Shown: positions 18,838 through 43,685 of the stretch, one piece after another
Position numbering within the stretch: position 1 is the stretch's first letter
Layout of the letters: every line of letters starts with the position of its first letter
Assembly: GCF_000242595.2 (NCBI RefSeq)
Contig: NC_017098.1
Coordinates: forward strand, 1-64,000
Direction of reading: 5' to 3'
Source: Spirochaeta africana DSM 8902
GTDB taxonomy: Bacteria > Spirochaetota > Spirochaetia > DSM-27196 > DSM-8902
Length of the DNA: 64,000 nucleotides
Translations under genes and position numbers: made by a program
Notes under the pieces: generated by a model
The model's input: only the letters and a program-made list of their open reading frames with translations
What the model was told of the DNA's origin: nothing
The model's database searches: none

Positions 18838-20154
18838 ATGCACCTGTTTCATTCCGCCCGACGCCCCCCGAGGCTGCTGTTGTCGGCTGCCGTGCTGCTG
18901 CTCGCTACTCTGCCCGTCTTTGCCGGATCAACGCCGCCGACAGCGGTTGCCGATCCCGCGCCGCCGGCTCCGGAAACCGCACCAACGCTGCCCTGGCCGC
19001 AGCTCACCGGGTTTACCCGGGTGTGGGGCGGGGCCGTGGCCGGGGTTCGCGAACTGCCCGGCACGGTGGCGGCCGATGGGCGCGGGCCGGTGCAGCTGTT
19101 CGCCGCAAACCCGCTGTACGGCATGGAGCTGGGACTGCAGCTGCAGGCGGCACCGGCCCCGGGCCTCCACCTGGCCGCGGCCGCCGAGCTGGCGCTGGAT
19201 CAAGCCTCCATGGAGTTTGCGGCTGCGCTGCCCGAGCTGTATCTGCAGCTGACAACCCCGACCCGCTACGATGCCGGTCTGCAGCTGGCAATCGGCCGAC
19301 GCCCGCAGGAGTGGGGGATAGCCCGACTGCTGAACAACCCCGCCAATCTGGTCAGCGACAGCGACCAGGCAATCGGTCTCGGACTATCCGCCCGGCTCTT
19401 GTCCCTGCAGCTGCAGGGGCTCGGTTATCTAAGCGAGCCGGAGGAATCGGACACCGCTGCCGGACATGCGGTTTACTCGCTGCATACCACCTTCAATCCC
19501 GGCTGGTTTCGCAGCTCGCTCGCTTTGCAGCAGCGCACTGCAGAGGATCTGCCGCTGCGGGCGACGGCGGCACTCGGGTTCGAGGCGCCGCTGCCCTTTG
19601 CCCCGTCCGGCTGGCAAAGCACTATCGATACCGCGGCCGAGGGTACGGCCATCTGGGAGCCGGAGCTTCTGTGGGAGGGCGAGTTCTTTTTAACCGTGGC
19701 GGCCGACTGGCGCCTGCAGCGGGGACACCAGCGCCGAGGCCACCCGCCGGCCCCGGCCCCGCAACGCCCGCCGCCCCCGGATCTGAAGCGCTCGCAGCAG
19801 GCCGACCTCCACCCGGACTGGCGCCTCAGTGCCGAGTATCACTTCGACAGCACGGTACTGGGGACCCGCGGCAACGAGGCGGCGGTGCGGATCAAAACCC
19901 CGTACTGGCGTGGCCCGGCCGGGGAGTGGCGGGTCGCGGTTAACAAACGCTATGCCTGGGCCGATGGTTCCGGCAGCGTTACACCGAAACTTACCGGGCA
20001 GCCTGCTCCCCAGGCGTTACCACATACCACCCTGAGCGCCGCCCTGCCGATCGCCTGGGGAGGGCGGGACAGTATTGCCCGTCAGAACCATGACCTGCTT
20101 GGCGAGCGAACCGCGGCGCTTCACCTCACCCTGACCCTTGGTGTAGACTGGTAG
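18838..20154 (+). CDS. Predicted outer-membrane beta-barrel protein (CotH cassette 1)
   Basis: The 438-residue product has a signal peptide (cut near LPVFAG, residue 30) and then many alternating hydrophobic/polar strands. It ends in LTLTLGVDW with a C-terminal aromatic residue, as in outer-membrane barrels. A segment AIGRRPQEWGIARLLNNPANLV is shared with the cassette 2 protein (RAGRQKMAWETARLLNNPADFV), showing paralogy. An Ala/Pro-rich stretch and a Pro-rich loop (about 300-320) are present. It is first in an operon with a lipoprotein and a CotH kinase. Function unknown; it may export, anchor or display the partner lipoproteins. Confidence 0.72.
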   Translation: MHLFHSARRPPRLLLSAAVLLLATLPVFAGSTPPTAVADPAPPAPETAPTLPWPQLTGFTRVWGGAVAGVRELPGTVAADGRGPVQLFAANPLYGMELGLQLQAAPAPGLHLAAAAELALDQASMEFAAALPELYLQLTTPTRYDAGLQLAIGRRPQEWGIARLLNNPANLVSDSDQAIGLGLSARLLSLQLQGLGYLSEPEESDTAAGHAVYSLHTTFNPGWFRSSLALQQRTAEDLPLRATAALGFEAPLPFAPSGWQSTIDTAAEGTAIWEPELLWEGEFFLTVAADWRLQRGHQRRGHPPAPAPQRPPPPDLKRSQQADLHPDWRLSAEYHFDSTVLGTRGNEAAVRIKTPYWRGPAGEWRVAVNKRYAWADGSGSVTPKLTGQPAPQALPHTTLSAALPIAWGGRDSIARQNHDLLGERTAALHLTLTLGVDW

Positions 20155-20155
20155 C

Positions 20156-20998
20156 ATGCACCGCATCCTGCCGCCAGTGCTGCCGCCGCGGCGCCTGCAG
20201 CGCACACCATTGCTCACGAGCCGCTGTCTTCTGCTCACTCTGGCGGCAGGGCTGTTTACCGCCTGTGTCGGGCCGTTTCATTCGCCGGCTGCCGACGATG
20301 CCCAGGCCGCACGCCGTATGGCCTCGTACCGCACCGACTTCGAGCACTATCGGGGTACCGAAGCCAGTCTGCCGCCGGGGATGTTTGTCACTGCCGATGG
20401 ACCTTCCGGTGAAACCGGGGGCGATTCGTTCGATCCCTTTACCGGGGTACATGAATACTCCCCCAATTCTGCCTACAGCTTCGACGGCTTCGGTGCCTTT
20501 ACCGCCGATCGCAGCCGCTACTCCTTCGGGATCCGGGAGCACGGCCCGGTCGACATGCAGAATGCGCGGCTGTATCTGGAATACTCCAACACCACGGTCT
20601 TTCCGATTATCGGCTTCGAGGTAAGCTACGAGGTGCAGGTGTGGTACCTCGGGCAGCGGGACAATCAGATCCGGCTGAAATACAATACCGACAGCAGCGG
20701 TTTTGGCGACCTGGCCGACATCGCCGCCACCCGCAATCCCATGGGAGACTATACCGCCGACGGGCTGCCGCTGGACGGCACTCGCAGCGTCAACAGTGTG
20801 CGGGTTCGCACCAGCTTCATGCTCGAGGAACTGCAGCAGACCGATGGCAGCTCTGCCGGGATACCGACCCTGCAGCCCGGTGCTGTCGGGTATTTCCGCT
20901 GGCAGTTTTCTAATGCCGAACACGATGACGGCGGTATTCGCAGCGGACTGGCACTGGATCGCATTCGGATTACCCCGATACTGGCAGGTGAGCAATGA
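20156..20998 (+). CDS. Lipoprotein of the CotH cassette (about 280-residue family), copy 1
   Basis: The 280-residue protein has a long basic N-terminus, a hydrophobic segment and a lipobox ending LFTAC (Cys near 37), so it should be lipidated. Downstream motifs shared with the 26357-27190 product include DPFTGVH, DGFGAFTA, YSFGIRE and GFEVSYEVQVWYLGQRDNQIRLKY. The pattern FGIR-NTT-SYEVQVWY-RDNQIRLKY resembles a jelly-roll-like beta domain found in many secreted proteins, but I cannot name the family. The gene starts 1 base after the barrel gene and overlaps the CotH gene by ATGA. Confidence 0.72.
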   Translation: MHRILPPVLPPRRLQRTPLLTSRCLLLTLAAGLFTACVGPFHSPAADDAQAARRMASYRTDFEHYRGTEASLPPGMFVTADGPSGETGGDSFDPFTGVHEYSPNSAYSFDGFGAFTADRSRYSFGIREHGPVDMQNARLYLEYSNTTVFPIIGFEVSYEVQVWYLGQRDNQIRLKYNTDSSGFGDLADIAATRNPMGDYTADGLPLDGTRSVNSVRVRTSFMLEELQQTDGSSAGIPTLQPGAVGYFRWQFSNAEHDDGGIRSGLALDRIRITPILAGEQ

Positions 20999-23109
20999 GG
21001 CTTCGTCGCTCCCCGGGATCAGCGCGCCGGCTGCGGCCAGCCGTACTGCTGATACCACTGGTTCTCCTGCTGCTGGCAGCCGGCGCCTGCGAGATCCAGC
21101 TGCCGACCCCGTCGCTGCCGGCCCTGCGCGAGGGCGGGGTGGCGTTCTCGCACGATGCCGGGTTCTACCATGAACCATTCCAGCTGGAACTCGGCCTGGA
21201 CGAGGTTGCCGACCAGCTGCGCTCGGCAGGTCAGCTGCGCGCTGAAGATCAGGCGCGCAGCTCCGCTACAGAGATCACCATCTACTACACCCTGGACGGC
21301 TCTGAACCCACGCCGGATAACATCATGACCGACCGCGAATGGCGGGAGGCCTCGTCTGAGACCCGCGCTCGCACCTTTGTCTACACCGGCCCGATCAGCC
21401 TCGGGGATCAGCTGCCGCGCGAGCCCGATCTGGCGACCATAAAAACCGGCCGTATGGGGGACGAGTATGCCTGGCATCCCCCGCACAGCAGCCATCGCAG
21501 CCATGCCGTGGTGGTGCGTGCCCTGGCGCGCGGGCAGGAACTGCAAACCCGTACCACGACCCGCAGCTACTTTATCCATCCGGATGGCGATACCATCCAT
21601 CAGCTGCCGGTGGTAAGCCTTTCCCTGGATCGCGCGGGATTGTTCTCGTTCGAGACCGGGCTCTACGTCCCGGGAATCTGGGCGGAGTGGTGGGACATCT
21701 ACACCGGTAACTATCATCAGCGCGGTCGCGACTGGGAACGCCGTGCCCACCTGGAGTATTTCGAGACCGAACCGGAGCAGGGGGCGATTACTGCCCCCCC
21801 CGTTCTGTCGCATGGCGTCGGGGTTCGCCTGCATGGCGCCAAGAGCCGGAACTTTCCGCAGAAATCCCTGCGACTGTATGCCCGCAGCGAGTACGGCCCG
21901 AATCGCCTGGCGCATCAGTTTTTTTCTACCAAAAGCGACGACCGCTTTAACCGGCTGCTGCTGCGCCACTCCGGCAACGACTGGGGACACACCATGTTCC
22001 GCGATGCTGCCGCCCAGACCCTCATGCTGCATCGGGATCTGGACATCCAGCATTACCAGCCGGCAGTGGTGTACATTAACGGGGAGTACTGGGGGATTCA
22101 CAACCTGCGCGACCGCTACGACCCGCATTATATGGAGCAGCGCTACGGACTGGATCCCGACAACATCACTATCCTGGAGAACAATGCCGAACTGGATCAC
22201 GGCAGCCCGCAGCTGCGCAGCCAGTATCTGGATCTGGTTGCCGCGGTCGGCACTGCGCCGCTGGATACCCCCGCCGCGATCAACGAGAAGCTCGACCTGG
22301 ACAACTGGATCGATTATCACATTCTGCAGTGGTACCACGCCAACACCGACTGGCCCTATAACAATGTCCGCCTCTGGCGGGTAAACCGGCCACCGACAGC
22401 CACCGCCGGCGGCCAGCCGGATCCACCCGACCCCACCGTGAACGACGGGCGCTGGCGCTGGCTGGTCTATGACATCGACCGCTCCTTCGGCTTTACCAGT
22501 ACAAAGAACACCAACATGCCCCGCCATGTACTGGACGCAGACGACTGGTCGCGCGACCTCGTGCATAGATTGCTTTCTATCCCCGTGGTGCGGGATGAGT
22601 TTCTGCAGCGCACCGCCGTACACCTGGCAACTACCTTTCACCCGGAACGGGTAGCCCAGCATATCCAGCAGCTGGCAGCCGCGATCGAGCCGGAGATACC
22701 CCGGCACAGCCAGCGCTGGCGCCGCCCCGGCACCGGTTTCTGGCAGCAGGAACTGGATATCATGCTGGATTTCGCCGCCAATCGTCCGCGAATCCACCGC
22801 CGTCACCTGGATACCTGGTTTGGCGAGATTACCGGCACCGCCACTGTAGAGATAACCGGGGTCGACCCGGACAGCGACATACGCCTGCATACGGTGCGGC
22901 TGCACCCCGACACCCCCGGTGTGGAAATCCAGGACGGCAGCTGGAGCGGTGAGCTCTTTACCGGGGTACCGCTTACCCTGGAATCCGGCTCGACCGATCT
23001 TTCCACTGCCGTTATTCAGGGCGACGAATCAGCCTTTGAACTGCTGGAGCAAACCCCCGATCGCCTGAGCCTGCGCATCACCGGGGAAAAAGTATCGATT
23101 CTGCTGTGA
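20995..23109 (+). CDS. CotH-kinase-family lipoprotein 1
   Basis: The 704-residue protein has a lipobox (LLLAAGAC), a chitobiase-C-terminal-like beta domain (ITIYYTLDGSEPTP, about 95-110) and a CotH-type atypical kinase domain (about 200-600). Conserved features are GVRLHGAKSRNFPQKSLRLY, the LLLRHSGNDWGHTMFRD segment, YINGEYWGIHNLRDRYD and the acidic LVYDIDRSFG metal-site-like motif. Known CotH proteins phosphorylate secreted proteins in spore coats. Here it should act on surface or periplasmic substrates. The C-terminal 180 bases of conserved sequence (22825-23004) recur in the third CotH gene. ATGA overlap with the preceding lipoprotein gene. Confidence 0.85.
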   Translation: MRLRRSPGSARRLRPAVLLIPLVLLLLAAGACEIQLPTPSLPALREGGVAFSHDAGFYHEPFQLELGLDEVADQLRSAGQLRAEDQARSSATEITIYYTLDGSEPTPDNIMTDREWREASSETRARTFVYTGPISLGDQLPREPDLATIKTGRMGDEYAWHPPHSSHRSHAVVVRALARGQELQTRTTTRSYFIHPDGDTIHQLPVVSLSLDRAGLFSFETGLYVPGIWAEWWDIYTGNYHQRGRDWERRAHLEYFETEPEQGAITAPPVLSHGVGVRLHGAKSRNFPQKSLRLYARSEYGPNRLAHQFFSTKSDDRFNRLLLRHSGNDWGHTMFRDAAAQTLMLHRDLDIQHYQPAVVYINGEYWGIHNLRDRYDPHYMEQRYGLDPDNITILENNAELDHGSPQLRSQYLDLVAAVGTAPLDTPAAINEKLDLDNWIDYHILQWYHANTDWPYNNVRLWRVNRPPTATAGGQPDPPDPTVNDGRWRWLVYDIDRSFGFTSTKNTNMPRHVLDADDWSRDLVHRLLSIPVVRDEFLQRTAVHLATTFHPERVAQHIQQLAAAIEPEIPRHSQRWRRPGTGFWQQELDIMLDFAANRPRIHRRHLDTWFGEITGTATVEITGVDPDSDIRLHTVRLHPDTPGVEIQDGSWSGELFTGVPLTLESGSTDLSTAVIQGDESAFELLEQTPDRLSLRITGEKVSILL

Positions 23110-23129
23110 ATACCGCCAGTCGCGGCCGC

Positions 23130-23231
23130 CCTGTGGAACAACTCGCAGAACAATCACTTTCATCTGAGAAACTATACAAAAAGTAGCATTATCTCAGATC
23201 AAACTGAGTCTCCCGTATGTGTTCCCACACG
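23130..23231 (+). repeat. 102-bp dispersed repeat, copy 2 (MITE-like)
   Basis: Same length and orientation as 18134-18235, with about a dozen differences. It begins CCTGTGGAAC and ends with GTTCCCACA. It starts 20 bases after the first CotH gene and directly precedes another Rpn-tail remnant. Confidence 0.75.
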
Positions 23232-23237
23232 CCTGTG

Positions 23238-23282
23238 GAGATAATAGCCTGGTTAGCCGAGCACCCCGAGCTAAGGCCCTGA
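23238..23282 (+). pseudogene. Rpn-family C-terminal tail remnant
   Basis: The frame encodes EIIAWLAEHPELRP then a stop. This matches the DWLAEHLELYP end of the Rpn remnant at 18061-18096. Only the last residues survive. Confidence 0.45.
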
Positions 23283-23762
23283 GCTATAGCCCTGAGCGTA
23301 TCCTGATTCCGGCTGCAGGCTGGGTAGTATGCGGTTCGCTGCGCAACCACAGTACCGGGGCGGTTGCGGGGAACCGTGGCTGGAGCGAAGTGTCTGATAC
23401 AGACCGTTATCGGTCAGATAGATTTTCCGGGCTGCCGCGGGATTGGCTCGGTTGCGCAACGTAATCAGAAAAAGGCTCTCCTCCAGATGGTGCAGATACT
23501 CATCCAGCAGCACATTACGTTCTGCCATGTGTCTGGAATCAGTTCGGCTCTTCTCGGGAAAATCACGGAAACGAAGGAACTCGCTGAAACTCAGGGGGAA
23601 GAGTTCATAGGTAAGTACCTTGCCGCGCAGGGATTCAGCAAGGTTACGACTGAACATAGCAGAGTTGGATCCGGTAATGATCACCGTGGTATTCTGATTC
23701 TGCAGATACCGCAGTCCCGACTCAAAATCCTGCAGCTGTTGAATCTCATCCAGGAAAAACAC
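23271..23762 (-). pseudogene. Remnant of an AAA-type ATPase (AAA_14/DUF4143-like)
   Basis: The minus-strand frame begins at the Walker B region (FFLDEIQQLQDFE) and continues with VIITGSNSAMFSRNLAESLRG and YELFPLSFSEFLRF, as in this ATPase family. It lacks the Walker A N-terminus. The middle is deleted: LLDEYLHHLEESLFLI joins two distant family segments, then RKIYLTDNGLYQTL. The tail is nonsense. The intact relative in this window is at 46761-47966. The region to 23921 holds no other recognisable gene. Confidence 0.75.
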
Positions 23763-23921
23763 CGGATCATGCGGTGCGCTTGTCTCTATTGCTGCCTGTC
23801 AAGGAAATAAGCTTTGATTCTTTCCTTCTGCATGCTGAAATAAAAGCTGTATTTCGTGGTGTATGCAAGCATAAACCCCAGGTACCGGCCGCCGCTATGA
23901 CCGCCCTGCACATAAAAGTCC

Positions 23922-24593
23922 CTACTTCAGCCGTCGCTTATACTCTGAAATCGTGATATGCAGGTTGTGTTCGGCGGCAAAGCGATCGAAGCGGGTGTAC
24001 AGCTCCACCAGGTCGGCGGAACGGGGGTGGCGCAGTTCCAGTTCGAGTTCGATGCGCGGTGATTTCTGCTTGCCGCTGGCGCGGGCAGCTGACTCCCCGC
24101 GGGTACTGACGACCTTTCCGCGCAGGCCGCATTCGGCAATGAACTGCAGCAGCTGTTGTTTGCGCAGTACATGCTGCTCGGCTATGCTGCAGTGCAGCAG
24201 AAAAAACTGGCGGGACGGCAACAGGTGTGGTACCACCAGTACCATGAGCGAGAGCACGATGAACGCCAGGGCAGACAGCTTGTACTGCCCGGTGCCAACC
24301 AGAACCCCGATGATTACCGCAAACAGGATAAAGGTTATTCCTTTCTGGTCGGTCAGCGCCGAGCGGAAGCGGACAATACTCAGCACACCGAAAATACCGA
24401 AAAAGGTTACCGCCTGCACCGAGCTGTCGATGTGCATCATGACCGAAAGCAGCACCGTCAGCAGCGGGATTACCTCCAGCAGCGAGTCGTCCAGCCGCTT
24501 CCAGCGATTGCTGACGACATACACCAGCAGGATCGCAATACCGAACAAAAAACTGATACCCAGGTTACCCAGGGTGTGGATGGTTATGGTCAT
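23922..24593 (-). CDS. DUF4956-like inner-membrane protein
   Basis: The 223-residue protein has about five hydrophobic segments in its first 145 residues, including LGISFLFGIAILLVYVV and ITFILFAVIIGVLVGTG with the family-like SIVRFRSALTDQKGITF loop, then a charged cytosolic domain of about 80 residues (ELELRHPRSADLVELYTRFDRF). DUF4956 proteins are often encoded beside CotH and VTC-domain genes, and here the gene is divergent from CotH cassette 2. ATG at 24593 is chosen over a TTG at 24629 because a promoter-like element and a possible AGGA site lie just upstream. Function unknown. Confidence 0.78.
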   Translation of the reverse strand: MTITIHTLGNLGISFLFGIAILLVYVVSNRWKRLDDSLLEVIPLLTVLLSVMMHIDSSVQAVTFFGIFGVLSIVRFRSALTDQKGITFILFAVIIGVLVGTGQYKLSALAFIVLSLMVLVVPHLLPSRQFFLLHCSIAEQHVLRKQQLLQFIAECGLRGKVVSTRGESAARASGKQKSPRIELELELRHPRSADLVELYTRFDRFAAEHNLHITISEYKRRLK

Positions 24594-24600
24594 AGCAAAG

Positions 24601-24629
24601 ATCCTAAAGAAATTTGCCAACACGAACAA
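24601..24629 (-). promoter_or_regulatory. Candidate promoter of the DUF4956-like gene
   Basis: On the minus strand TTGTTC, a 17-base spacer and TAGGAT end 7 bases before the ATG. The AGGA within could alternatively be a ribosome binding site. Its -35 lies 3 bases from the divergent -35 at 24633. Confidence 0.4.
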
Positions 24630-24632
24630 TAC

Positions 24633-24662
24633 TTGCCACTAATCGGGGTGCTGTCGTAGACT
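24633..24662 (+). promoter_or_regulatory. Candidate promoter of CotH cassette 2, leaderless layout
   Basis: TTGCCA (24633-24638, 5/6 match), an 18-base spacer and TAGACT (24657-24662) end 7 bases before ATG 24670. No ribosome binding site is visible. It is back-to-back with the DUF4956 promoter. Confidence 0.5.
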
Positions 24663-24669
24663 GATGATA

Positions 24670-26367
24670 ATGAAAAAGACCCTGCTGTTTGCTGCGGTAC
24701 TGTCCCTGGGTGCCGCCCTCATCGCCCCGGCGCTGGAACACACCCCGGTGGCTGTACCCGATGCCCGCTTGCGCGCTGCCATCATCGCCGAACTGGAACT
24801 GCCCGAAACCACCGAGCTTACCCGTGAACAGCTTGCCGAGCTGACCTCCCTGCGTGCCCGCAGTGCCGGGATCCGGGATCTGACCGGGATGGAGCATGCG
24901 GTGAATCTGGCCGAGCTGGATCTGCGCGATAACGACATCCGCAGTATCGAACCGCTGCGGGATCTCGCCGGGCTTGTCTGGCTGAGCCTGCGCGAAAACC
25001 CGCGCCTGCGGGATATCGGGCCGCTGGCCGGGCTGACCGCCCTTGAGTATCTGAACCTGAACCGGAATTATCGTATCGCCAGCATCGAGCCGTTGGCCGG
25101 GATGCAGCAGCTGGATACCCTGATTCTTCGCAGCGTGCCGGTGCTGCACCGCACGGCGGATCAGGATGTGCTGCGCAGCCTGCGCGGGATTTCCCGGTTG
25201 AATATTCGAGATACCGGCCTGGACACCGTGGAGCCGCTGCTGCCGGGGCTGGAGCGGGGTGACTACCGCGAGCAGCTGGATCTGCTGGAAAACCCGCTGC
25301 AGGATCGTCATAAACTGACCCCGTATCGCGCTCATATAGAGGACTTTCAGCAGTATACCCCGGTATTCACCGCCCGGCTGCGCACCAATGCAGGTATGAT
25401 ATTCGGTCGTGATGAATGGTACAGCTTTGCCGTGCATCGCGAGCCGATATACGACCTGGATCTGCGACTGCGGCTGGATGTCGAGCCGCGATCGTACCTG
25501 CGCATCTTTGGTGCCCTGGATATAGAACTGGATACCGACGAGCTGGATTTTGACTGGGAGATAGATGAGCTGTTTCTGCAGTACACCTTTCCGGATGACA
25601 CCACCCGGATACGGGCCGGACGGCAAAAAATGGCGTGGGAGACTGCCCGGCTGCTGAACAACCCGGCCGATTTTGTAGCCGCGGTCGAGGACGGGTATGC
25701 CCTGCGACTGGATGCCCGCCTCCCGGCACTACTTGATGTCTCCCAGCACGCCACCGCGGTGGTCTATGCCACAGAGGACTATTTGTGGTCGGATGCAGAC
25801 CGGATCGAGCTGCGGGATTTTGCCTATGCCCTGCGCTACCGGGTACAACCGGGACCATTCGATCTGCGCCTGTCGGCCCGTTACCGGCAGGAGCAATATC
25901 GCCCCCTGCGCACGGCAGCCAGCCTGGGGTTCCGGCATGACGGTATCGAGCTGCGCGGCGAGGCAACAACCTGGTGGGACAGGGACGAAGCCCCGCGCGA
26001 GGGCGACGGGTTTCTTACCGCCCAGGCGAGCTGGACAGCGCAGCAGCCGGATTCCTGGCGCATACTCACCGAGTATCAGTATGACAGTACGATTCTGGAC
26101 GGAAAGGGACATTATACCGCCGCCGAGTTTCGCTTTCCGCCGCTGTTCGGGTTCCAGTCACAGCTGCGTCACCGGCATGCCTTTCAGGATCATTCCGGCG
26201 AGATTATCCCCGAGCTCAGGCGTACGCTCATCCCGGGTGTGCAGGCAGTTTTTCAGCTGCCGATGGTGTATGGGGATCAATACGGCTACTATCGCCGCAA
26301 CCCGGAGCTGGGAGATGGCCGGGCAATGGCCGCGATTCTGTCGCTGGAGGCAGAGTTTGAATTCTGA
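24670..26367 (+). CDS. Leucine-rich-repeat/outer-membrane beta-barrel fusion (CotH cassette 2)
   Basis: The 565-residue protein starts with a signal peptide (MKKTLLFAAVLSLGAALIAPA). About five 22-residue leucine-rich repeats follow (about 60-180: NLAELDLRDNDIRSIEPL, ALEYLNLNRNYRIASIEPL). The second half is strand-rich and ends LSLEAEFEF with a terminal Phe, as in outer-membrane barrels. The region RAGRQKMAWETARLLNNPADFV and the later EYQYDSTILDGKGHYTAAEFR are paralogous to the cassette 1 barrel. Start 24670 is preferred over 24664 (MIMKK) from the promoter position. The repeats probably lie in the periplasm or on the surface as a binding platform for partner proteins. Confidence 0.75.
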   Translation: MKKTLLFAAVLSLGAALIAPALEHTPVAVPDARLRAAIIAELELPETTELTREQLAELTSLRARSAGIRDLTGMEHAVNLAELDLRDNDIRSIEPLRDLAGLVWLSLRENPRLRDIGPLAGLTALEYLNLNRNYRIASIEPLAGMQQLDTLILRSVPVLHRTADQDVLRSLRGISRLNIRDTGLDTVEPLLPGLERGDYREQLDLLENPLQDRHKLTPYRAHIEDFQQYTPVFTARLRTNAGMIFGRDEWYSFAVHREPIYDLDLRLRLDVEPRSYLRIFGALDIELDTDELDFDWEIDELFLQYTFPDDTTRIRAGRQKMAWETARLLNNPADFVAAVEDGYALRLDARLPALLDVSQHATAVVYATEDYLWSDADRIELRDFAYALRYRVQPGPFDLRLSARYRQEQYRPLRTAASLGFRHDGIELRGEATTWWDRDEAPREGDGFLTAQASWTAQQPDSWRILTEYQYDSTILDGKGHYTAAEFRFPPLFGFQSQLRHRHAFQDHSGEIIPELRRTLIPGVQAVFQLPMVYGDQYGYYRRNPELGDGRAMAAILSLEAEFEF

Positions 26368-27190
26368 TCGGTACGCTGCCACCCCGCTGGCTTGTATCCT
26401 GCTGCTGGCCGGCATTCTGCTGCTGACCACCTCATGTGCCGGGCCATTTGATTCGCTCGGGTCCGGTGGTCTGGCAGATGCGCGGGAACGCAGTACGGTA
26501 TACATCGATTTTTCCGAGTACCGCGGCAGCCGCGATACCATGCCGGCGAACATGTTTGTTACCGGCAGTCGCGACAGCGATGGCGAGCCGATCGGTTCAG
26601 GATATGACCCCTTTACCGGCGTGCATCTGTATGCCGGCGGCGCCACCAGTGACACCTTCGATGGCCTGGGGGCCTACACCGCCGGCGACGACAGATACGC
26701 ATTCGGTATCCGCGAGCGCGGCGCGGCAGACCTGCGGGACCTGCGGCTGTTTTACGAGTTTACCAACACAACCGAGTATACCATTATCGGGTTTGAGGTA
26801 TCGTATGCGGTCGAGTTGTGGTACCACGGCCAGCGGGACAACCAGATCCGGCTGAAATATTTCCCGTATACAACCGGGTTTGGCGATCTGGCTGATATTA
26901 TTGCTACCCCCAACCCGAGACTGCCTGATTTTCTGCCTGCCTATGGACCGGATTCGTTTCTTGACGGCCGCCATACAGAAAACCGGATAGCAGAGCAGCA
27001 GCGGTTCCTGTTCAGGGAATTGCAAAAGACCAGCGGCGCGGCAGCGGGGATATCTCCCCTGTATCCCGGCGAAACCGGGTATCTGCGCTGGCAATACTCC
27101 AACGGCGAGATAACCACCGGTACCCGGCGCAGCGGGCTGGCGATCGCATCAATTCAAATTACCCCGATCTTCCGGGAGGATACCCCATGA
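26357..27190 (+). CDS. Lipoprotein of the CotH cassette (about 280-residue family), copy 2
   Basis: The 277-residue protein has a lipobox (LLLTTSC) and is clearly paralogous to the 20156-20998 product: YDPFTGVHLY, DGLGAYTAGDDRYAFGIRERG, NTTEYTIIGFEVSYAVELWY and RDNQIRLKY. The start is a TTG at 26357, 11 bases inside the barrel gene, with GGAGG six bases upstream; no ATG or GTG gives an intact signal peptide. ATGA overlap with the next gene. Function unknown, but the constant pairing with barrel and CotH genes suggests an accessory or substrate protein. Confidence 0.73.
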   Translation: MNSDRYAATPLACILLLAGILLLTTSCAGPFDSLGSGGLADARERSTVYIDFSEYRGSRDTMPANMFVTGSRDSDGEPIGSGYDPFTGVHLYAGGATSDTFDGLGAYTAGDDRYAFGIRERGAADLRDLRLFYEFTNTTEYTIIGFEVSYAVELWYHGQRDNQIRLKYFPYTTGFGDLADIIATPNPRLPDFLPAYGPDSFLDGRHTENRIAEQQRFLFRELQKTSGAAAGISPLYPGETGYLRWQYSNGEITTGTRRSGLAIASIQITPIFREDTP

Positions 27191-29199
27191 GAACACCAGC
27201 GGGTAGGATCAGGAACCGGCAGGCGGCGCGGCTGGTACTGCCGATACTGTGTCTGCTGCTGGTAACCGGCTGCATCGGGCCATTCAGCCCCACAACCGTT
27301 TCCGACGAGAAAACCCTGCCGCCGCCCCGGTTCAGCCACGAGGCCGGGTTTTACAGTGAGGACTTTGAGCTTTCACTGCTGCCACCTGCGGACTACCCCG
27401 ATGCCAGAATTTACTACACCCTGGACGGGTCCTACCCGGATCCTGCATCACCGCAGCGGGATTTTTTGGTAATGCAAACCTACCCGAACGGCACCCGGGA
27501 AACCTGGACCACCACCACTACACCATACCAGGAACCACTTTCCATCGGGTTTTCTGCCGCAAGCATCCCCCGCTACGAGATTGAATCTATCAATACCTAC
27601 TACCGGAATACCCCGTTCCAGCCCGAAGAAGATCCGGATCGCGGCTGGGTTGTCCGGGCAATTGCGGTGTGCCGGGAGAGTGCTGCTGTCAGCCCGGCAG
27701 CAACAGCGGTGTTTTTCCCCCAATCTGTCAGGGATCAGCATACCCTGCCGATTATCTCGCTGGTATCCGATCCCGCAGGTTTGTTCGATCATTACCAGGG
27801 GATCTACGTAGCCGGGCAGGTCTTTAACCGTGAACTGGCGGCCAACCCGGATGGCGGCCCGACCCGCGGCTGGGACGGCAACTACAAGCAGCGCGGGCGT
27901 GACTGGGAGCGGGAGGGGTTTCTGCACTTTTTTGATTCCAGTGCTGCCGCGGATATGCAGCAGCGGATCGGGATTCGTATAAACGGCAACAATACCCGAT
28001 CGTTTCGCCGCAAGTCGCTGCGCCTGTATGCTCGCAACGACTATGGCAATCGAATCTTTCCGGTTAATCCCTTTGGTACCGATGAAAAAATCCGGCGCCT
28101 CATCCTGCGCAATTCAGGGCAGGACGGGGGAAATTATCCACAGGAAAGCTATGGCTACGGCAATACCGAAACCAACATGCGCGATGCACTTACCCAGATG
28201 GTGGTGAGCCACTACCCGGTGGAGCATGAGCAGTATCGCCCGGCGGTGCATTATATAAACGGTATATACTGGGGACTGATCAACATCCGCGAGCGGCGGG
28301 ATCAGCACCACTTTGCCGCCCGGTACGGGATATCACCGGATAATCTGGTAATCCTGGCCAACGAACGCCTGCACTATGGCCGCGGCAGCGACCTGTGGCT
28401 GTACCGCCAGCTTGCCGGCGCAAACTCGGCAGAGGAAATGTGGGACATGGTAGACAAGCAGTCGTTTACCTACTACAACATCGGCAATCTGTTTCTGACC
28501 CACTCCTACTGGCCGCTGGGCGGCAGCGGCGACAACCGCTACTGGCGGGTGAGAGAGCCATCCGCGGTGAACCCCTATCACGATGGCCGCTGGCGCTTTA
28601 TGTGGCAGGATATGGATAAATCATTTTCCGAGTACTCACGCAATATGTACGCCCAGCTGGAGGACACCCACTCGCTGCATCGCAAGGTCAGTCGCCTGGT
28701 GTTTGCCGATCCAGGCTATCGGAACTATTTTCTGAACACCCTGGCCGATGAGCTGAATACCACCTTCGCTCCGGACAGACTGCATGGGATAATCGACACC
28801 CTGAACGCAGCTATCGCCCCGGAACGGTCCCGCCACTACAGCCGGTGGCGCAGCGGCGATCACGAGCCGGATGCATTTCGCGACTTTGCCGATAATCGGC
28901 AGGAGCATTTTATCGCGCACACCAAAGCGTATTTCGGGCTGGACGGGATGCACGAACTGCAGCTTGCCGGCAGTGCCGCACAGGGTTCGATACAGCTGAA
29001 CTCCCTGCAGATAGATACCGACTCCTGGAGCGGTCGCTACTTTGCCGGTATTCAGCTGCGTCTGACGGCTCAACCGGCCAGCGGCTATCGCTTTGACCAC
29101 TGGCTGGTAAACGGCACCACCCATTCCGCACCATCCATCACCCTGGATCTCCGAGAGGATACAACGGTAACGGTGCAGTTCAGCGAGGCTGGGTCATGA
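27187..29199 (+). CDS. CotH-kinase-family lipoprotein 2
   Basis: The 670-residue lipoprotein (lipobox LLLVTGC) has the chitobiase-like segment ARIYYTLDGSYPDP near residue 75 and a CotH kinase domain (about 190-560) with GIRINGNNTRSFRRKSLRLY, RLILRNSGQDGG, YINGIYWGLINIRERRD and the acidic WQDMDKSFSEY motif. The C-terminus differs from the other two CotH proteins: AQPASGYRFDHWLVNG and DTTVTVQF form an InlB-B-repeat-like domain seen in surface proteins. It overlaps both neighbours by ATGA. Confidence 0.85.
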   Translation: MRTPAGRIRNRQAARLVLPILCLLLVTGCIGPFSPTTVSDEKTLPPPRFSHEAGFYSEDFELSLLPPADYPDARIYYTLDGSYPDPASPQRDFLVMQTYPNGTRETWTTTTTPYQEPLSIGFSAASIPRYEIESINTYYRNTPFQPEEDPDRGWVVRAIAVCRESAAVSPAATAVFFPQSVRDQHTLPIISLVSDPAGLFDHYQGIYVAGQVFNRELAANPDGGPTRGWDGNYKQRGRDWEREGFLHFFDSSAAADMQQRIGIRINGNNTRSFRRKSLRLYARNDYGNRIFPVNPFGTDEKIRRLILRNSGQDGGNYPQESYGYGNTETNMRDALTQMVVSHYPVEHEQYRPAVHYINGIYWGLINIRERRDQHHFAARYGISPDNLVILANERLHYGRGSDLWLYRQLAGANSAEEMWDMVDKQSFTYYNIGNLFLTHSYWPLGGSGDNRYWRVREPSAVNPYHDGRWRFMWQDMDKSFSEYSRNMYAQLEDTHSLHRKVSRLVFADPGYRNYFLNTLADELNTTFAPDRLHGIIDTLNAAIAPERSRHYSRWRSGDHEPDAFRDFADNRQEHFIAHTKAYFGLDGMHELQLAGSAAQGSIQLNSLQIDTDSWSGRYFAGIQLRLTAQPASGYRFDHWLVNGTTHSAPSITLDLREDTTVTVQFSEAGS

Positions 29200-31148
29200 A
29201 GCGCGTAACCTGTCTGCTGTGCCTGGCACTGCTGGTAACCGGCTGCATCGGGCCATTCAGCCCCACAACCGTTTCCGACGAGAAAACCTTGCCGCCGCCC
29301 CGGTTCAGCCACGAGGCCGGGTTTTACAGCGAGGGCTTTGAGCTTTCACTGCTGCCACCAGTGGACTACCCCGATGCCAGGATTTACTACACCCTGGATG
29401 GATCTGTGCCAGATCCCGATAATGTCATGACCGATGAACAATGGGAGGCCGCCGATCGTACCACCAGGGTGCGTACCTTCCGCTACCGTGAACCTATCGG
29501 GATTGCCGCACACCTGGATCGCGTCAATGACATCTCGCTGATTCCGACGAACTATTATAATTGGGAGGAACCGGCTGCATCGGTACCCAAATCTGTCATC
29601 GTTACGGCAAAGGCTTGGCAGGAAGACGGCAAAAGCCGTCCGGTATTCAATACCTTTTTTGACCATGACCATGGCCAGTTGCCTGTTGTCAGCCTGGGAA
29701 CAGAGAGAACAGGGCTGTTTTCTCACAGAAATGGCATACTGGTGCCGGGGGTGCACTATGATGAGGACCAGGATCGGTGGTGGCGAACCGGGAACTATCA
29801 GCAGCGAGGGCGTGAGTGGGAACGGATAACCAGTTTTGAGTTGTTCCGCGATGGGCACCAGCGGGTGCTGCATCAGAATGTGGGGATCCGGATTCACGGG
29901 CGTGCAAGTCGGGGCATGCCGCTAAAGAGTTTTCGTTTGTATGCCAGAAGCGATTATGGCACCAGCAGGATTAACCATCAGATTTTCCCTACTAAATATG
30001 TGGATGATTTCAATCGTATACTGTTACGGAACTCCGGGCAGGATAGCCAGCACACCCTGCTCAAGGATGGTGCAATACAGCGCATGCTGCATGACTTCGG
30101 GTTTGAGTCTCAGCATTATCAGCCGGCTGTTGTGTATCTGAATGGTGAGTACTGGGGGATACTCAACTTTCGTGATCGGTTCGACCATCATTATCTGGAG
30201 ACCCATTATGGGGCAGGGCGCGAGAATACGGTAATTCTACAGTCCCATGGGAGTCTGATTCTTGATCATGGAGAAGATGTCCGGAACGATTTTATGACCG
30301 AGGTAAATGCCGTTCTGGATGGCCATAGAAGCGCTGCCTGGATACGGAATTTTCTGGATGTGTCCGGATATCTCGATTACAACATAGTGCAGTTCTACAT
30401 AGCCAACAGTGATTGGCCACATAATAATACCAGATTCTGGCGATTTACCGGGACACCGACAACAGCTTTTGGTCCAAGGGATGGCAGATGGCGCTGGATG
30501 CTGTTCGATCTGGACTCCGGGTTTCGCGTTTCCGATCGCAATATGTTCACCCACGTTTTTGAGGATCGGGGTCATCACTGGACCGCCCGACTATTGGCAA
30601 GCATTCTGGCTATGCCGGAATTCCAGGCAGATTTTGCACAACGCACCGCGGTCTATCTTGCAACACGTTTCAGTCCGGAAAGCATGGTGCCACAAATTCA
30701 GGGCGCGGCAGATCTGATTCAACCGGAAATCGCGCGACATGCCAAACGCTGGAATAGTCCCTGCGAAGTATCATGGCAGGAACAGATTGACGTCATGATG
30801 GATTTTGCCACCGATCGTCCGGCAATTATGCGGCAGCACCTGCAGGAGTATTTTAACGAGATAACCGGCACCGCCATGGTAGAGATAACCGGGATCGAAC
30901 CCGACAGCGACATACGTCTGCACACGGTGCGGCTGCACCCCGACACGCCAGGTGTGGTAATCCAGGACGGCAGCTGGAGCGGTGAGCTTTTTACCGGGGT
31001 ACCGCTTACCCTGGAATCCGGCTCGACCGATCTTTCCGATGCACAGATTCTGGGTGATGAAGGTGGGTATCAGCTGATGGAGCAACGGGTAAACTTCCTG
31101 CGCCTGCGAATTACCGAACCCGATGCTGAAATCAGGATCTCTTTGTAG
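29196..31148 (+). CDS. CotH-kinase-family lipoprotein 3 (mosaic)
   Basis: The 650-residue lipoprotein (lipobox LALLVTGC) carries YYTLDGSVPDPDNVMTD, then a CotH domain with GIRIHGRASRGMPLKSFRLY, RILLRNSGQDSQHTLLKD, YLNGEYWGILNFRDRFD and LFDLDSGFRV. The gene is patchwork: bases 29229-29403 are about 95% identical to 27258-27432 in CotH 2, bases 30858-31037 are about 90% identical to 22825-23004 in CotH 1, and the middle is visibly AT-richer than either. The body protein is closer to CotH 1. Likely all three kinases act on surface or periplasmic targets with different specificity. Confidence 0.85.
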   Translation: MKRVTCLLCLALLVTGCIGPFSPTTVSDEKTLPPPRFSHEAGFYSEGFELSLLPPVDYPDARIYYTLDGSVPDPDNVMTDEQWEAADRTTRVRTFRYREPIGIAAHLDRVNDISLIPTNYYNWEEPAASVPKSVIVTAKAWQEDGKSRPVFNTFFDHDHGQLPVVSLGTERTGLFSHRNGILVPGVHYDEDQDRWWRTGNYQQRGREWERITSFELFRDGHQRVLHQNVGIRIHGRASRGMPLKSFRLYARSDYGTSRINHQIFPTKYVDDFNRILLRNSGQDSQHTLLKDGAIQRMLHDFGFESQHYQPAVVYLNGEYWGILNFRDRFDHHYLETHYGAGRENTVILQSHGSLILDHGEDVRNDFMTEVNAVLDGHRSAAWIRNFLDVSGYLDYNIVQFYIANSDWPHNNTRFWRFTGTPTTAFGPRDGRWRWMLFDLDSGFRVSDRNMFTHVFEDRGHHWTARLLASILAMPEFQADFAQRTAVYLATRFSPESMVPQIQGAADLIQPEIARHAKRWNSPCEVSWQEQIDVMMDFATDRPAIMRQHLQEYFNEITGTAMVEITGIEPDSDIRLHTVRLHPDTPGVVIQDGSWSGELFTGVPLTLESGSTDLSDAQILGDEGGYQLMEQRVNFLRLRITEPDAEIRISL

Positions 31149-31201
31149 CCCAGGCCTTGCCGCCCTGTCCTACAATTTTCCCGATTTTTTTGACCCCCAC
31201 A

Positions 31202-31247
31202 TTGATTTGCAACCCTCCGCGTGCTACGTTGTTCAATACGTGAACAA
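31202..31247 (+). promoter_or_regulatory. Candidate promoter with operator-like inverted repeat before the regulator
   Basis: TTGATT (31202-31207), 17 bases, then TACGTT (31225-31230). The perfect inverted repeat TTGTTCA / TGAACAA (31229-31235 and 31241-31247, 5-base spacer) covers the expected transcription start. It could be an autoregulatory site for the downstream winged-helix protein. This leaves a leader of about 180 bases. Confidence 0.4.
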
Positions 31248-31422
31248 ACTGCTTCGCATGCCTCGCAGCCTGGTTCGCCGGTCGGGGTTGTGCGCTGTGG
31301 CAACAGCATCGGGATGCAGGGAGCCGGGAGACAGATGCCGCACAGCGGCAAAATCGCCCCGGCTGCCATCGACCCCGGTGTATCTGCAGACCGGCAGCGT
31401 TGTTCACTACCCCGGAAAATCC

Positions 31423-32091
31423 ATGGCATCATCCCGTATCCAACCAGAATTTTTTCCCTCTCTCTCCTCCGAGGCAGCGGCCGAACCTGTTCCGGACAAT
31501 GCCGCACGCAGTGTGGCCGGGTCGGAGGATCCCCACGAGCTGGAACTCCTGCGGGAGCTGGAGCAGGCCGGGCGGGAACAGCGACAGCCGCGGCAGCGGG
31601 AGCTGGCCGAGGCGGCGGGGATCAGCCTGGGCACGACCAACCTGGTGCTCAAGCGTCTGGCGAAGCGCGGACTGGTCAAGCTGCGTAAACTCAACGGCCG
31701 CAGCATGCAGTATGCGGTAACACCTGAGGGGATGCGCGAACTTTCGAATCGCAGCTATCGCTACATGCGCCGTACTATTGGCAGCGTAGTGCGCTGGAAA
31801 GAGCAAATCGATCATCTGGTCCGCAACGCCAGGCAGAACGGGTGTACCGACATACTACTGATTGGCCCCAGCGATCTGGGATTTATAGTAGAGCACTGCT
31901 GCCGTCGCCACGCCGTAGGTTTTATAAGCTGTTCACAGCTCGAAGAGCTGACAGCCGATTCTCATCGCCCTGGCAGTATCTGGCTGGCAGGGGAACATAT
32001 AGACCCGTCCGGTGAGCAGGCTCGACAGCTCCGGGTACAGGCCGAACATTCTACAGCGGCACCACCGGTTTTTTTGCGGGAGGTGCTGTGA
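31423..32091 (+). CDS. Winged-helix (MarR-like) transcriptional regulator of the glycan locus
   Basis: The 222-residue protein has a helix-turn-helix near residues 55-105: RQRELAEAAGISLGTTNLVL followed by KRLAKRGLVKLRKLNG and the wing. A helical linker follows, then an alpha/beta C-terminal part (DILLIGPSDLGFIVEHCC) that may bind a ligand. Proteins of this layout often stand at the head of exopolysaccharide loci. ATG 31423 is chosen because the in-frame extension upstream (from 31258) looks non-coding. GGAA lies six bases before the ATG. Confidence 0.72.
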   Translation: MASSRIQPEFFPSLSSEAAAEPVPDNAARSVAGSEDPHELELLRELEQAGREQRQPRQRELAEAAGISLGTTNLVLKRLAKRGLVKLRKLNGRSMQYAVTPEGMRELSNRSYRYMRRTIGSVVRWKEQIDHLVRNARQNGCTDILLIGPSDLGFIVEHCCRRHAVGFISCSQLEELTADSHRPGSIWLAGEHIDPSGEQARQLRVQAEHSTAAPPVFLREVL

Positions 32092-32195: not shown

Positions 32196-33143
32196 ATGAG
32201 CGAAACCACCCCCGCGGCGATATCGATCGTCGTACCCGTGCACAACGAAGAGGGCAATGTTGCCGAGCTGCATCGCGAGATCGTCCAGGTCTGCGAGGCC
32301 AACGGCTATACGTATGAGATAATCTTTGCCGACGATGGTTCGCGCGACAGGACCTGGCAGATAATGCAGGGGCTGCGGCCGCTTACGGCAATCCGGCTGC
32401 GCAAGAACTTCGGGCAGACGGCGGCCATGGATGCCGGCATCAAGCAGGCGCAGTATCCGTATATTGTTACCATGGATGGCGACCGGCAGAACGATCCGGC
32501 GGACATCCCCCGCCTGCTGCAGGCCCTGGAGGAGCAGCGGGTGGATATCGTCTCCGGCTGGCGCAAGAACCGCAAGGACTCCTTTGCCAAGCGGTTTACC
32601 TCGCTGGGGGCGCGCATGCTGCGCCGGGTGCTGATTAACGACGGCATCCACGACTCGGGCTGCAGCCTGAAGGTCTACAAGAGCGACTGCTTTCGTGGTC
32701 TGACCCTGTACGGCGAGATGCACCGCTTTATCCCGGCGATTCTCAAGATAAAAGGTTTTACGATTGGCGAGATAGAGGTGCACCACCGCCCGCGTACCGC
32801 CGGGAAAACCAAGTACAACTGGAAGCGCTCGGTGAAAGGCTTTCTGGACATGATCTCGGTCTGGTTCTGGGAGAAATACGCCGTGCGCCCGCTGCACCTG
32901 CTGGGCGGCCTGGGTATTCTGGCCCTGCTGCTGGCATTCGGGGTAACCGGGATCGGGATCGGGTTCTATATGGCGCGGATCACCCTGTTCCGCTTCTTTC
33001 TGCCGGTACTGGCAGCGTTTCTGTACATCACCAGCTTGCAGCTGCTTATATTCGGGCTTATGGCCGACATGATGGCCAAGAGCTATTTCGGTACGACCAA
33101 AGACACCCCGTATTCGGTGGCGGAGGTTCAGGAGCAGAAATGA
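32196..33143 (+). CDS. GT2 polyprenyl-phosphate glycosyltransferase (DPM/GtrB-like)
   Basis: The 315-residue enzyme has an N-terminal GT2 domain with SIVVPVHNEEGNV, FADDGSRDRTW and MDGDRQNDP (the metal-binding D-x-D region), and two C-terminal membrane segments (about 230-255 and 265-290). This is the layout of enzymes that move a sugar from a nucleotide to undecaprenyl phosphate at the inner membrane. The lipid-linked sugar is then a donor for GT-C enzymes; a GT-C gene starts at its stop codon (ATGA). Ribosome binding site GAGGAG. Confidence 0.88.
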   Translation: MSETTPAAISIVVPVHNEEGNVAELHREIVQVCEANGYTYEIIFADDGSRDRTWQIMQGLRPLTAIRLRKNFGQTAAMDAGIKQAQYPYIVTMDGDRQNDPADIPRLLQALEEQRVDIVSGWRKNRKDSFAKRFTSLGARMLRRVLINDGIHDSGCSLKVYKSDCFRGLTLYGEMHRFIPAILKIKGFTIGEIEVHHRPRTAGKTKYNWKRSVKGFLDMISVWFWEKYAVRPLHLLGGLGILALLLAFGVTGIGIGFYMARITLFRFFLPVLAAFLYITSLQLLIFGLMADMMAKSYFGTTKDTPYSVAEVQEQK

Positions 33144-35857
33144 AATCCGGCTATCGTCTCTGTATCGCTGTTGGCATAACCCTGTTGAGTGCCGGGGTGA
33201 TGGTTTCGCAGCTGGTGCCGCGCATCGATATGTCGGCAAACTATTTCGATGTACGGTATTTTACCTATCTCGACGGCTACGATGTGCATATCGAGGCCGA
33301 TCGCGGCGGTCGTACCCACCAGCTGGAAGCAGGAGAGGTATCGCGCCAGTTTTTCCGTGAGGATATTACCGCCTTTCGGCTGATTTTTACTCGCAGGCCG
33401 GCAGTCGATGGGGATGCTATGGTAATGACCTCCAGCACAACCTGGCAATGGCTGGGGCAGGCGCCGGCGCCGGCCGGGCTGTCATATGTCGGGCTGCATC
33501 TGTCCGGTGGGGTCGAGCCGACCCAGCTTATGGTGCGGGCCAATCATCTGCCGGCAGAGTTCTCGCACCAGCAGGATGGGCTTGCCTATTATCGCGTGCC
33601 CGGTTCGCCTCAGCTGCTGCATCAGCTTGATGTCCGTACCCGCACGCCGCTGGCAAACCCGGTTCGCCGGGTGCTGGTCCTGGAAGAACCCCCGCAAAGG
33701 ATTTACCTGGATACCCTGCAGCTGTTTCGGGACATCAGTCAGGTAGAGTTTCGCTATCCCATGCAGCGGCTGGATGCCGGACGGATCCTGCAGGATTTTA
33801 CCGTGCTCGAGGGTGCTGCCGCTGCAGTACCGTACCGGCAGTACCTGGAAATCCAGCCGACCTCACCAAGGATTGTACTGGAGTACAGCGGGGATCTGCC
33901 GCAGTTTCTGGCGGAGGGCAGGGCGCATGCCCGTCCGGTCGTCTGGGGATTGCATGCGGCTATTGCGGGGTTTCTGCTGCTTTTGTGCTGGCTGCTGTAC
34001 TGGCTGATATCTCCCGGGGTGGTGGTGCGGGTACAGGCAGCCCTGCAGAACAGGCAGACATTCCGGGCCACGATTGCCCGTCTGAAAACCCTGCCCGATC
34101 GTCCGGTTGGCGATGTTCGCAGCCTGCGGCAGATCCCGGCTGGTATGGTGTTTCTGGTCTGCTGCATTGCAGCCCTTATTGCCATGAACAGTGTCGCACA
34201 TGGCTCACTGATGTATTACCTGGCAGTGGCAGTTGCGGCGGCAGCTGGCACGGGGCTTGTACACGACAGCCGCAGCCGTAAGGACCCCCAGGGACTGCTG
34301 CCGCTGGGCGATCCGGCCGCAGGTGTGTCGGGCCCAATCACCTGTACCTCGCGCCGCTGCGGGTGGGTACTCTTTTCCCTGCTGGTTCTGTGTACCGCCG
34401 CTGCCCATCTGTACCGCCTGGGCGACGGCTACATGTGGATAGACGAGGCATATTCGTTCCTGCCGGCCCGGTTTATCCTGGAGACCGGGGAGCCGGTGTA
34501 TCCGCAGACCGGGTATGCGTATTATCGCGCCCACAGCTATCACCGATTGGTGGCCCGCAGCATGGGCTGGTTCGGTCAAACCACCTGGGCAGCCCGATTG
34601 CCCAATGTACTGGCCAACCTTGGCACCCTGGGGGTTATCTATCTGTTTGGCCGGAAACTGCATGCGGCGGTCGGGCTTGGGGCGGCTGCTATCTGGGCAA
34701 CCAGCAGCTATGTGCTGGCGTTAACCCGTTGGGTACGGATGTACCCGCTGCAGTGGTTTCTGTTTGCGCTTGCAGCCTATCTGTTCTATCTGGCAGTAGT
34801 GGATATGCCGCGACCGCGCATCCGCCAGCGCTGGCGCTGGTTCGATCTGTCCTTCAGCCCGGTTCCGCTGGTTGCCTTTTTCCCGGTTTTTCTGTTGGCC
34901 CTGGAAACCCACCGGGTGAGTGTGTATCTGGTGTTCGGGCTGCTGCTGTTCTTTCTGGCCGATGCTGCTGCCAACGCAGATCGGCGCCCGCGCTCCCTGC
35001 TGGGGGCAGCGGTAGTAGTCCTGCTGCTGACTGTCGCCGGCTATCGGGAACAGGGAACCCTTAATCTGTTCAGCGCATTCTTCGGGCATGGCCCGTCTCA
35101 CACACGGGCCAGCACTCCCAGGCTGTCCAACGTGACCGATGTTGTCCGCGAGGCGCAGCTGTTCTGGTTTCTGTTCCCGGTAACCATTGCCCTTATGTTC
35201 CGCAAGCAGGAAACCTGGCTGCGGTTTACCGCAGCGCTGGCGATTGGCGGGGTGCTGTTTATCGGCAATCAGTACGCCCAGAACTTTCGTTACTGGAGTG
35301 CGGTGCTGCCGTTTATGGCGCTGGCAGTGAGCGGGACCCTGTACCGGCTGGTGCTGGCGGCACGACAGCTGAAGCCGGTACTGGCACTGGTCGTGCTGCT
35401 GCTTATGCTGCCGGCGGCTGTCCACCTGCAGCTGTTTGCCCGCGAGCTGGGCGAAAGCACCGTACCCTACGACGACAATGCAATCCTGGCACACAGCAAA
35501 GCCGATTACGGCTATCTGATGCAGTACCTGCAGCTGTTTGCTGTGGATCGAACCATTATGGCCGAACACCATCTGTCGTACAGCTTGCCGGCGCACGGGC
35601 AGCGGGTGGATGTGGTGTTTCGCGAGGGGGTCAGCAGCCAGGATTATCAGCCAATCCAGCGACTTGGTATTCCGTATTTTTATAGCGACGACTTTGTGCA
35701 GCAACGGGACCCCAACGGTTTTCTGGTGTTGCGTCGTGATGAACCGGACATAACCGACCAGGCCCGGCAGGAGTTCTGGCAGCACCCGTTAGCCCCGGGC
35801 GAAACGATCCTGCTGGTTCCTCGCTGGCAGCCTGAAGTACAAGGAGTATACCATTGA
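33140..35857 (+). CDS. GT-C membrane glycosyltransferase (ArnT/PMT-like)
   Basis: The 905-residue protein has a membrane anchor, an exported beta-rich domain (about 30-270), then roughly a dozen membrane segments. The loop [16 protein letters not shown] carries the DE motif typical of the first external loop of GT-C enzymes using polyprenyl-phosphate sugars. It probably transfers the sugar made available by the preceding DPM-like enzyme to an acceptor outside the inner membrane. The long N-terminal exported domain is unusual for ArnT-type enzymes. It overlaps both neighbours by 4 bases. Confidence 0.78.
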
Positions 35858-36915
35858 AGTTCCTGATCACCGGCGGTGCCGGGTTTATCGGCTCGGCAGT
35901 CATCCGCCACATTATTCAGAACACCGCTGACAGTGTAGTCAATCTGGACAAGCTCACCTATGCGGGGAATCTGGAGTCGGTCGCCGATGCCGCACAGAGC
36001 GAGCGCTACACCTTTGCGCAGGCTGACATCTGCGACCCGGCAGCACTGGATCGCATTCTTGTGCAGCATCAGCCGGATGCAGTTATGCACCTGGCTGCCG
36101 AGAGCCATGTCGACCGCTCCATAGACGGCCCGGCAGAGTTTATTCAGACCAATCTGGTTGGCACCTACACCCTGCTGGAAGCTGTCCGCAGCTACTGGAA
36201 TACCCTGTCGGCAGGGGCAAAGCAGGCCTTCCGTTTTCACCATGTCTCTACCGACGAGGTCTATGGCGATCTGGAAAACCCGCAGGATCTTTTTACCGAG
36301 GAAACTGCCTATGCACCCAGCTCGCCCTACTCGGCCAGCAAGGCCGGCAGCGATCACCTGGTGCGGGCCTGGATGCGTACCTACGGCCTGCCGGCGATGG
36401 TAACCAATTGCTCCAACAACTACGGCCCGTATCACTTCCCCGAGAAGCTGATTCCCCACATGATTCTGAATGCGATCAGCGGCAAGCCGCTGCCGGTCTA
36501 CGGTGACGGAAGGCAGATTCGCGACTGGCTGTATGTAGAGGACCATGCCCGGGCGCTGCACCTGGTGGCAACCCGGGGTACCCCGGGGCAGACCTATAAC
36601 ATTGGCGGCCACAACGAAAAGCAGAACATCGAGGTAGTACAGACCCTCTGTGATCTGTTGGACGAGCTTGCGGCACCGCAACGGCCGAAGGGGCTGTCCA
36701 GCTATCGGGAACTGATTGCCTTTGTAAAGGATCGTCCCGGACACGACCGCCGCTATGCCATCGATGCCGGAAAGATTGAGCGCGAACTGGGCTGGACCCC
36801 GCAGGAAACCTTCGACACCGGGCTGCGCAAGACCGTGCAGTGGTACCTGGAGAACCGCGACTGGTGGCAGCGGGTGCTGAGCGGGGCGTACCGGCTGGAA
36901 CGACTGGGAGGCTGA
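35854..36915 (+). CDS. rfbB: dTDP-glucose 4,6-dehydratase
   Basis: The 353-residue short-chain dehydrogenase-type enzyme turns dTDP-glucose into dTDP-4-keto-6-deoxyglucose. The NAD loop GGAGFIGS (residues 7-14), [11 protein letters not shown] and the catalytic [10 protein letters not shown] are present. The start is TTG at 35854 with AAGGAG seven bases upstream; it lies within the last codons of the preceding gene. rfbA follows after one base. Confidence 0.95.
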
Positions 36916-36916
36916 C

Positions 36917-38865: not shown

Positions 38866-38874
38866 GGAGTTGCT

Positions 38875-40122: not shown

Positions 40123-40145
40123 CATTAATGTACTAATTATTATAA

Positions 40146-43684: not shown

Positions 43685-43685
43685 C

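Follow-up and report, generated by a model that had tools for sequence, protein, structure and literature searches.

Two paralogous barrel, lipoprotein and CotH operons in Spirochaeta africana: a new arrangement related to the CotH/VTC/DUF4956 module

We have analysed a window of 64,000 nucleotides from Spirochaeta africana DSM 8902 (NC_017098.1), which is the start of a closed genome of 3,285,855 bases and begins with dnaA, dnaN and recF-like genes. Within this window lie two paralogous operons, operon A (18838-23109) and operon B (24664-31148), which show the same order of outer-membrane barrel, lipoprotein and CotH genes, with two CotH genes in operon B (Table 1); in this respect, the preliminary description of the locus holds. 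The barrels of A and B share 28% identity over 366 columns (E 2e-29) and the lipoproteins share 49% over 249 columns (E 1e-77). The two operons are true paralogues, far beyond chance. The leucine-rich-repeat (LRR) domain of barrel B is N-terminal and has no counterpart in barrel A. The genes had been described as tied together by ATGA overlaps, and such overlaps are found at the lipoprotein/CotH and CotH1/CotH2 joints but not at the barrel/lipoprotein joint of either operon. In operon A, this joint is a 1-base gap (TAG-C-ATG), and in operon B it is an overlap of about 11 bases that requires the TTG start at 26357. Lipobox-like cysteines were recognized by eye at the N-termini of the lipoproteins and the CotH proteins. 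We are highly confident of this anatomy of both operons. Promoter-like sites directly before the starts of operons A and B were no commoner than in shuffled sequences, and no Rfam family was found in 16000-32500.

Table 1. Genes of operons A and B and of their immediate surroundings in the window.
Feature	Position	Strand	Remarks
Barrel of operon A, 438 aa	18838..20154	+	Outer-membrane beta-barrel, C-terminal Trp, no LRR domain; homologues within the genome are barrels B, C and D
Lipoprotein of operon A, 280 aa	20156..20998	+	Jelly-roll (predicted); lipobox ...LAAGLFTAC; in 7 metagenome genomes, a homologous domain forms the N-terminus of fused CotH proteins
CotH lipoprotein of operon A, 704 aa	20995..23109	+	Fn3_assoc/CHB_HEX_C_1, then CotH 277-599; catalytic D, N, D kept
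DUF4956 membrane protein	23922..24629	-	Divergent from operon B; TTG start annotated, internal ATG possible; 42.5 bits vs cut-off 30.6
LRR + outer-membrane beta-barrel of operon B, 567 aa	24664..26367	+	LRR about 30-230, barrel 234-567
Lipoprotein of operon B, 277 aa	26357..27190	+	Jelly-roll (predicted); TTG start; lipobox ...LLLTTSC
CotH1 lipoprotein of operon B (B1), 670 aa	27187..29199	+	InlB-like C-terminal repeat; catalytic Asp -> Tyr
CotH2 lipoprotein of operon B (B2), 650 aa	29196..31148	+	Catalytic residues kept
MarR/winged-helix regulator	31123..32091	+	Border to downstream exopolysaccharide cluster
Exopolysaccharide genes	32196..44603	+	Glycosyltransferases, dTDP-sugar-type enzymes, Wzx-type flippase PF13440

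The exopolysaccharide cluster that adjoins the operons is of the Wzx/glycosyltransferase type. On the other side, a Mutator-family transposase gene (16578-17774, minus strand) lies about 1 kb upstream of operon A. Operon A lies between two copies of a palindromic, MITE-like repeat of about 107 bases (18133-18239 and 23129-23235, 90% identical), and the only other two copies detected in the genome (69112-69190 and 87220-87297) flank the region of a further CotH locus, locus C. Between the first repeat and operon A, an antitoxin/toxin-like pair is found on the minus strand (18300-18766), consisting of a DUF6290 family protein and an 89-residue protein that looks ParE/RelE-like by eye. An AAA_14 ATPase gene with its N-terminal part missing (23271-23762, minus strand) lies between operon A and the DUF4956 gene.

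All three kinase-like genes were confirmed as CotH, with Pfam CotH (PF08757) scores of 173.8 (A), 83.9 (B1) and 152.6 (B2) bits against a cut-off of 23.8. The catalytic residues of CotH are equivalent to D166, N171 and D184 of PKA (review PMC12189002), and we read them from the profile match to PDB 5jd9 (E 6e-17). The aligned Asp/Asn/Asp are present in CotH A and CotH B2. In CotH B1, the first catalytic Asp is replaced by Tyr, and accordingly CotH B1 is probably a pseudokinase. A stretch of 188 bases that covers the signal and N-terminal part of CotH1 and CotH2 (27256-27443 vs 29229-29416) is 93% identical, while the remainder is far diverged; this pattern suggests recent gene conversion. Tandem runs of three to four CotH lipoprotein genes were also seen in other spirochaete genomes (L088 5057-12686, L087 6545-12343).

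To place the lipoprotein, 84,980 species genomes were scanned. Outside S. africana, its domain was found at seven loci, each in a metagenome genome of the Spirochaetales. At every one of them, domain and CotH share a single open frame, with the domain directly in front and a lipobox close to the beginning. Some of these frames end at a contig edge, and the complete ones are about 850-960 codons long. Upstream of the fusions, where the contig extends, there are LRR genes at five loci, VTC at three and DUF4956 at two. Because it is fused to CotH at all seven outside loci, the lipoprotein can be regarded as the N-terminal, predicted jelly-roll part of a lipidated CotH protein, a part for which S. 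africana has a gene of its own and which relatives encode within the CotH gene. The pairing of lipoprotein and CotH, adjacent or fused at seven of seven outside loci and three of three own loci, stands as a real functional unit, as had been proposed. CotH A and CotH B2 lie closest to the fused proteins (support 83/90) in an unrooted, weakly supported tree, and such trees are compatible with fission here as well as with fusion there. Among 198 Spirochaetota genomes, the lipoprotein family was found in S. africana only; one extra match (19.5 bits, internal stops) was dropped as noise. The lipoprotein had no match in plasmids or viral contigs, so nothing points to its having come from a plasmid or phage.

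The lipoproteins matched no Pfam or NCBIfam family, and their profile found nothing credible in PDB by sequence (best E 0.38). A model built from ten aligned sequences showed a predicted jelly-roll (pLDDT 78), of which the best fold match, at Z 11.6 over 157 residues (rmsd 3.2), was the cleaved-adhesin domain of the gingipain Kgp. Further matches were CBM4, at Z of about 10, and MAM and Eph domains, and jelly-rolls that do not bind sugar score alike. On the basis of this model, sugar binding by the lipoprotein is plausible. The jelly-roll is a common fold that includes the protein-binding Eph and MAM domains, and therefore the fold by itself does not imply glycan binding.

The genome carries six CotH domains at five loci. 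A third barrel-lipoprotein pair (L007, contig about 2.995-2.9996 Mb) has its CotH gene convergent, not co-oriented, so that a barrel gene lies directly upstream of all three lipoprotein genes of this genome. At locus C (L022), a cluster of FtsX permease, LolA_like and barrel genes is followed, about 4 kb on, by a divergent DUF4956 gene and an LRR-CotH gene; the divergent DUF4956 arrangement of operon B thus occurs there as well. This part of L022 (1043-7299), with FtsX permeases, a UDP-sugar transferase-like gene, LolA_like and barrel, has the form of a widespread spirochaetal export cluster. Locus E shows the order DUF4956-VTC-LRR/LTD/CotH.

The barrel has a different usual setting. Its profile matched 27 of the 198 Spirochaetota genomes, and at all 18 loci with readable upstream sequence the barrel stands directly behind a LolA_like gene, often with FtsX-type ABC permeases before the latter. 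Three further readable barrels, in genomes with fused lipoprotein-CotH, are also behind LolA_like. The rebuilt profile and this neighbourhood ruled out that the weak barrel matches are chance motif hits. A barrel of this family was seen beside lipoprotein and CotH only in S. africana and, on contigs that are mostly short, at none of the seven outside lipoprotein-CotH loci, so that the barrel as a dedicated third component in general is not borne out. Elsewhere, lipoprotein and CotH co-occur and the barrel does not join them, which is half of what the preliminary description had itself named as speaking against its proposal. In structure, the barrel model resembles OprD, chitoporin, MOMP and AlgE about equally (Z 18.6-20, about 280-309 residues), and the LRR half of the model is poor. 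Barrel A matched no Pfam or NCBIfam family, no Pfam barrel family scored above its cut-off, and the barrel profile found nothing in PDB. A reading of barrel B as an internalin-like adhesin was set aside; its internalin matches are generic LRR matches. Barrel-like proteins that are unrelated in sequence were seen in or beside the CotH/DUF4956 loci of three other spirochaetes (L077 8664-9686, L095 3728-4726, L091 8435-10048). Judged by composition and C-terminal residues, an outer-membrane partner of CotH may be a recurrent theme even where this barrel family is missing.

On the one hand, the barrels might be ordinary porins or paralogous transport barrels placed upstream by duplication, with only lipoprotein and CotH functionally linked. 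In all other genomes examined, the barrel family goes with a different system, and the position of operon A and its toxin-antitoxin-like neighbours between MITE-like repeats makes a rearrangement plausible. However, three strongly diverged barrel-lipoprotein pairs are kept in one genome, and the LRR family is common to barrels and CotHs: it is fused to barrels (operon B and L007), to CotH (loci C and E, and L091 in another spirochaete), or stands alone before fused lipoprotein-CotH. This sharing is a better link between the B-type barrels and the CotH module than the order of the genes, and we consider the placement by duplication rather unlikely. On the other hand, barrel, lipoprotein and CotH might form a dedicated system of three parts, with the barrel serving to export or display the other two and CotH phosphorylating surface proteins. 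In line with this, the barrel has kept its place before the lipoprotein genes through divergence to about 30-50% identity, and the unrelated barrel-like proteins of the three other spirochaetes would fit such a system as well. The lack of this family at the outside loci and its link to LolA_like speak against such a system, which in our view is unlikely.

Among the 198 Spirochaetota genomes, CotH was found in 31, DUF4956 in 32 and both in 26 (about 5 expected), and in 19 of these 26 the two lie within 10 kb of each other (hand count). DUF4956 adjoins operon B, and none is directly beside operon A. CotH, a polyphosphate polymerase (VTC) and DUF4956 form an accessory cassette of Gram-positive Pel loci (PMC7112168, PMC12345266). 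Streptococcus intermedius strains lacking SIR_1594 (CotH) or the adjoining DUF4956-type membrane gene SIR_1592 showed altered Pel levels and less Pel-dependent aggregation, and this 2025 study reported no case of the three-gene arrangement outside Pel loci (PMC12345266). Spirochaete loci, including locus E, keep DUF4956-VTC-CotH, and we noticed no Pel gene in those parts of their surroundings that were read. Among the genes read in 18838-31148, there is no VTC beside operons A and B, while it is present at locus E and in relatives; A and B are accordingly a variant of the cassette and not the full cassette. The initial statement that no system of this form had been described thus stands for the exact operon, as far as literature searches went, but not for the core cassette, which is published (PMC7112168, PMC12345266).

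It is also conceivable that CotH modifies the exopolysaccharide or another glycan and not proteins, with the lipoprotein binding the glycan and an AlgE/OprD-like barrel serving its export. Fam20B is a sugar kinase among the Fam20 relatives. The adjoining exopolysaccharide cluster, the Pel-locus association in Gram-positives, the CBM-like fold of the lipoprotein and a barrel as near to AlgE as to OprD and chitoporin are in keeping with this idea, but Bacillus CotH is a protein kinase (PMC12189002), a shared fold is no proof of function and the barrel matches are tied among many porin types, and we hold it to be quite improbable.

The explanation that we prefer, and to which we give an even chance, is an outer-membrane-anchored CotH module that serves a surface glycan or its proteins and has recruited a barrel and an LRR domain. 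Operons A and B would be lineage-specific forms of the CotH/VTC/DUF4956 module. The jelly-roll lipoprotein would probably keep the kinase-like domain of CotH attached to a glycan or glycoprotein of the surface. The barrel, a paralogue of one that works elsewhere after ABC permeases of the FtsX type and a periplasmic LolA_like carrier, may have been recruited here to anchor the lipidated CotH complex in the outer membrane or to let it pass, and it is fused to LRR in operon B and at the third locus. The complex might then modify surface proteins or the exopolysaccharide of the neighbouring cluster and thereby tune attachment or aggregation. Against this explanation stand the missing VTC at A and B, the lack of a DUF4956 gene immediately next to A, a Pel link that comes from Gram-positives and a barrel-CotH linkage in one genome only. 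Moreover, a lipidated kinase there would need a phosphate donor, and the periplasm and the surface are without ATP. A more specific form appears improbable to us: a spirochaete-specific outer-membrane machine in which a CotH kinase, lipidated and bound to glycan, is carried to or anchored at the surface by a barrel with periplasmic LRR, in operon B together with a pseudokinase partner, and phosphorylates surface proteins or the neighbouring exopolysaccharide.

CotH, VTC and DUF4956 recur together across bacteria without a known mechanism. The fusions of jelly-roll with CotH, LRR with CotH and LRR with barrel show which parts act together. With these loci, the module becomes testable in a diderm, and they offer an entry to bacterial extracytoplasmic phosphorylation or glycan modification.

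In comparison with known systems, operons A and B represent a new arrangement of a known, mechanistically obscure module and not a categorically new system. With the Gram-positive Pel cassette (S. intermedius SIR_1592-1594), they share a CotH with an Fn3-type accessory domain, a DUF4956 gene nearby and exopolysaccharide genes next door, and its complete DUF4956-VTC-CotH order is matched at locus E and in relatives. They differ from it in the outer-membrane setting, the lipidated CotHs, the separate jelly-roll lipoprotein, the LRRs, the barrels and the lack of VTC. The Bacillus spore-coat kinase CotH (PDB 5jd9/5jda) has the CotH domain in common with them and, by alignment, the catalytic D, N, D with CotH A and CotH B2, whereas here the proteins are lipoproteins with extra N-terminal domains, there are no spores and CotH B1 has lost the catalytic Asp. 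The barrels are homologous to those of the spirochaete FtsX-type ABC permease/LolA_like/barrel clusters, of which locus C is one, but the barrels of A, B and the third locus have no adjoining LolA_like or ABC genes. The DUF1302-DUF1329-RND clusters, such as AmeABCD of Castellaniella (PMC6394551), place a barrel beside a LolA-superfamily periplasmic protein and are analogous to the usual setting of this barrel; with a DUF1302 match below threshold in the window (12.5 vs 23.2 bits), we draw this as an analogy and not as a claim of homology.
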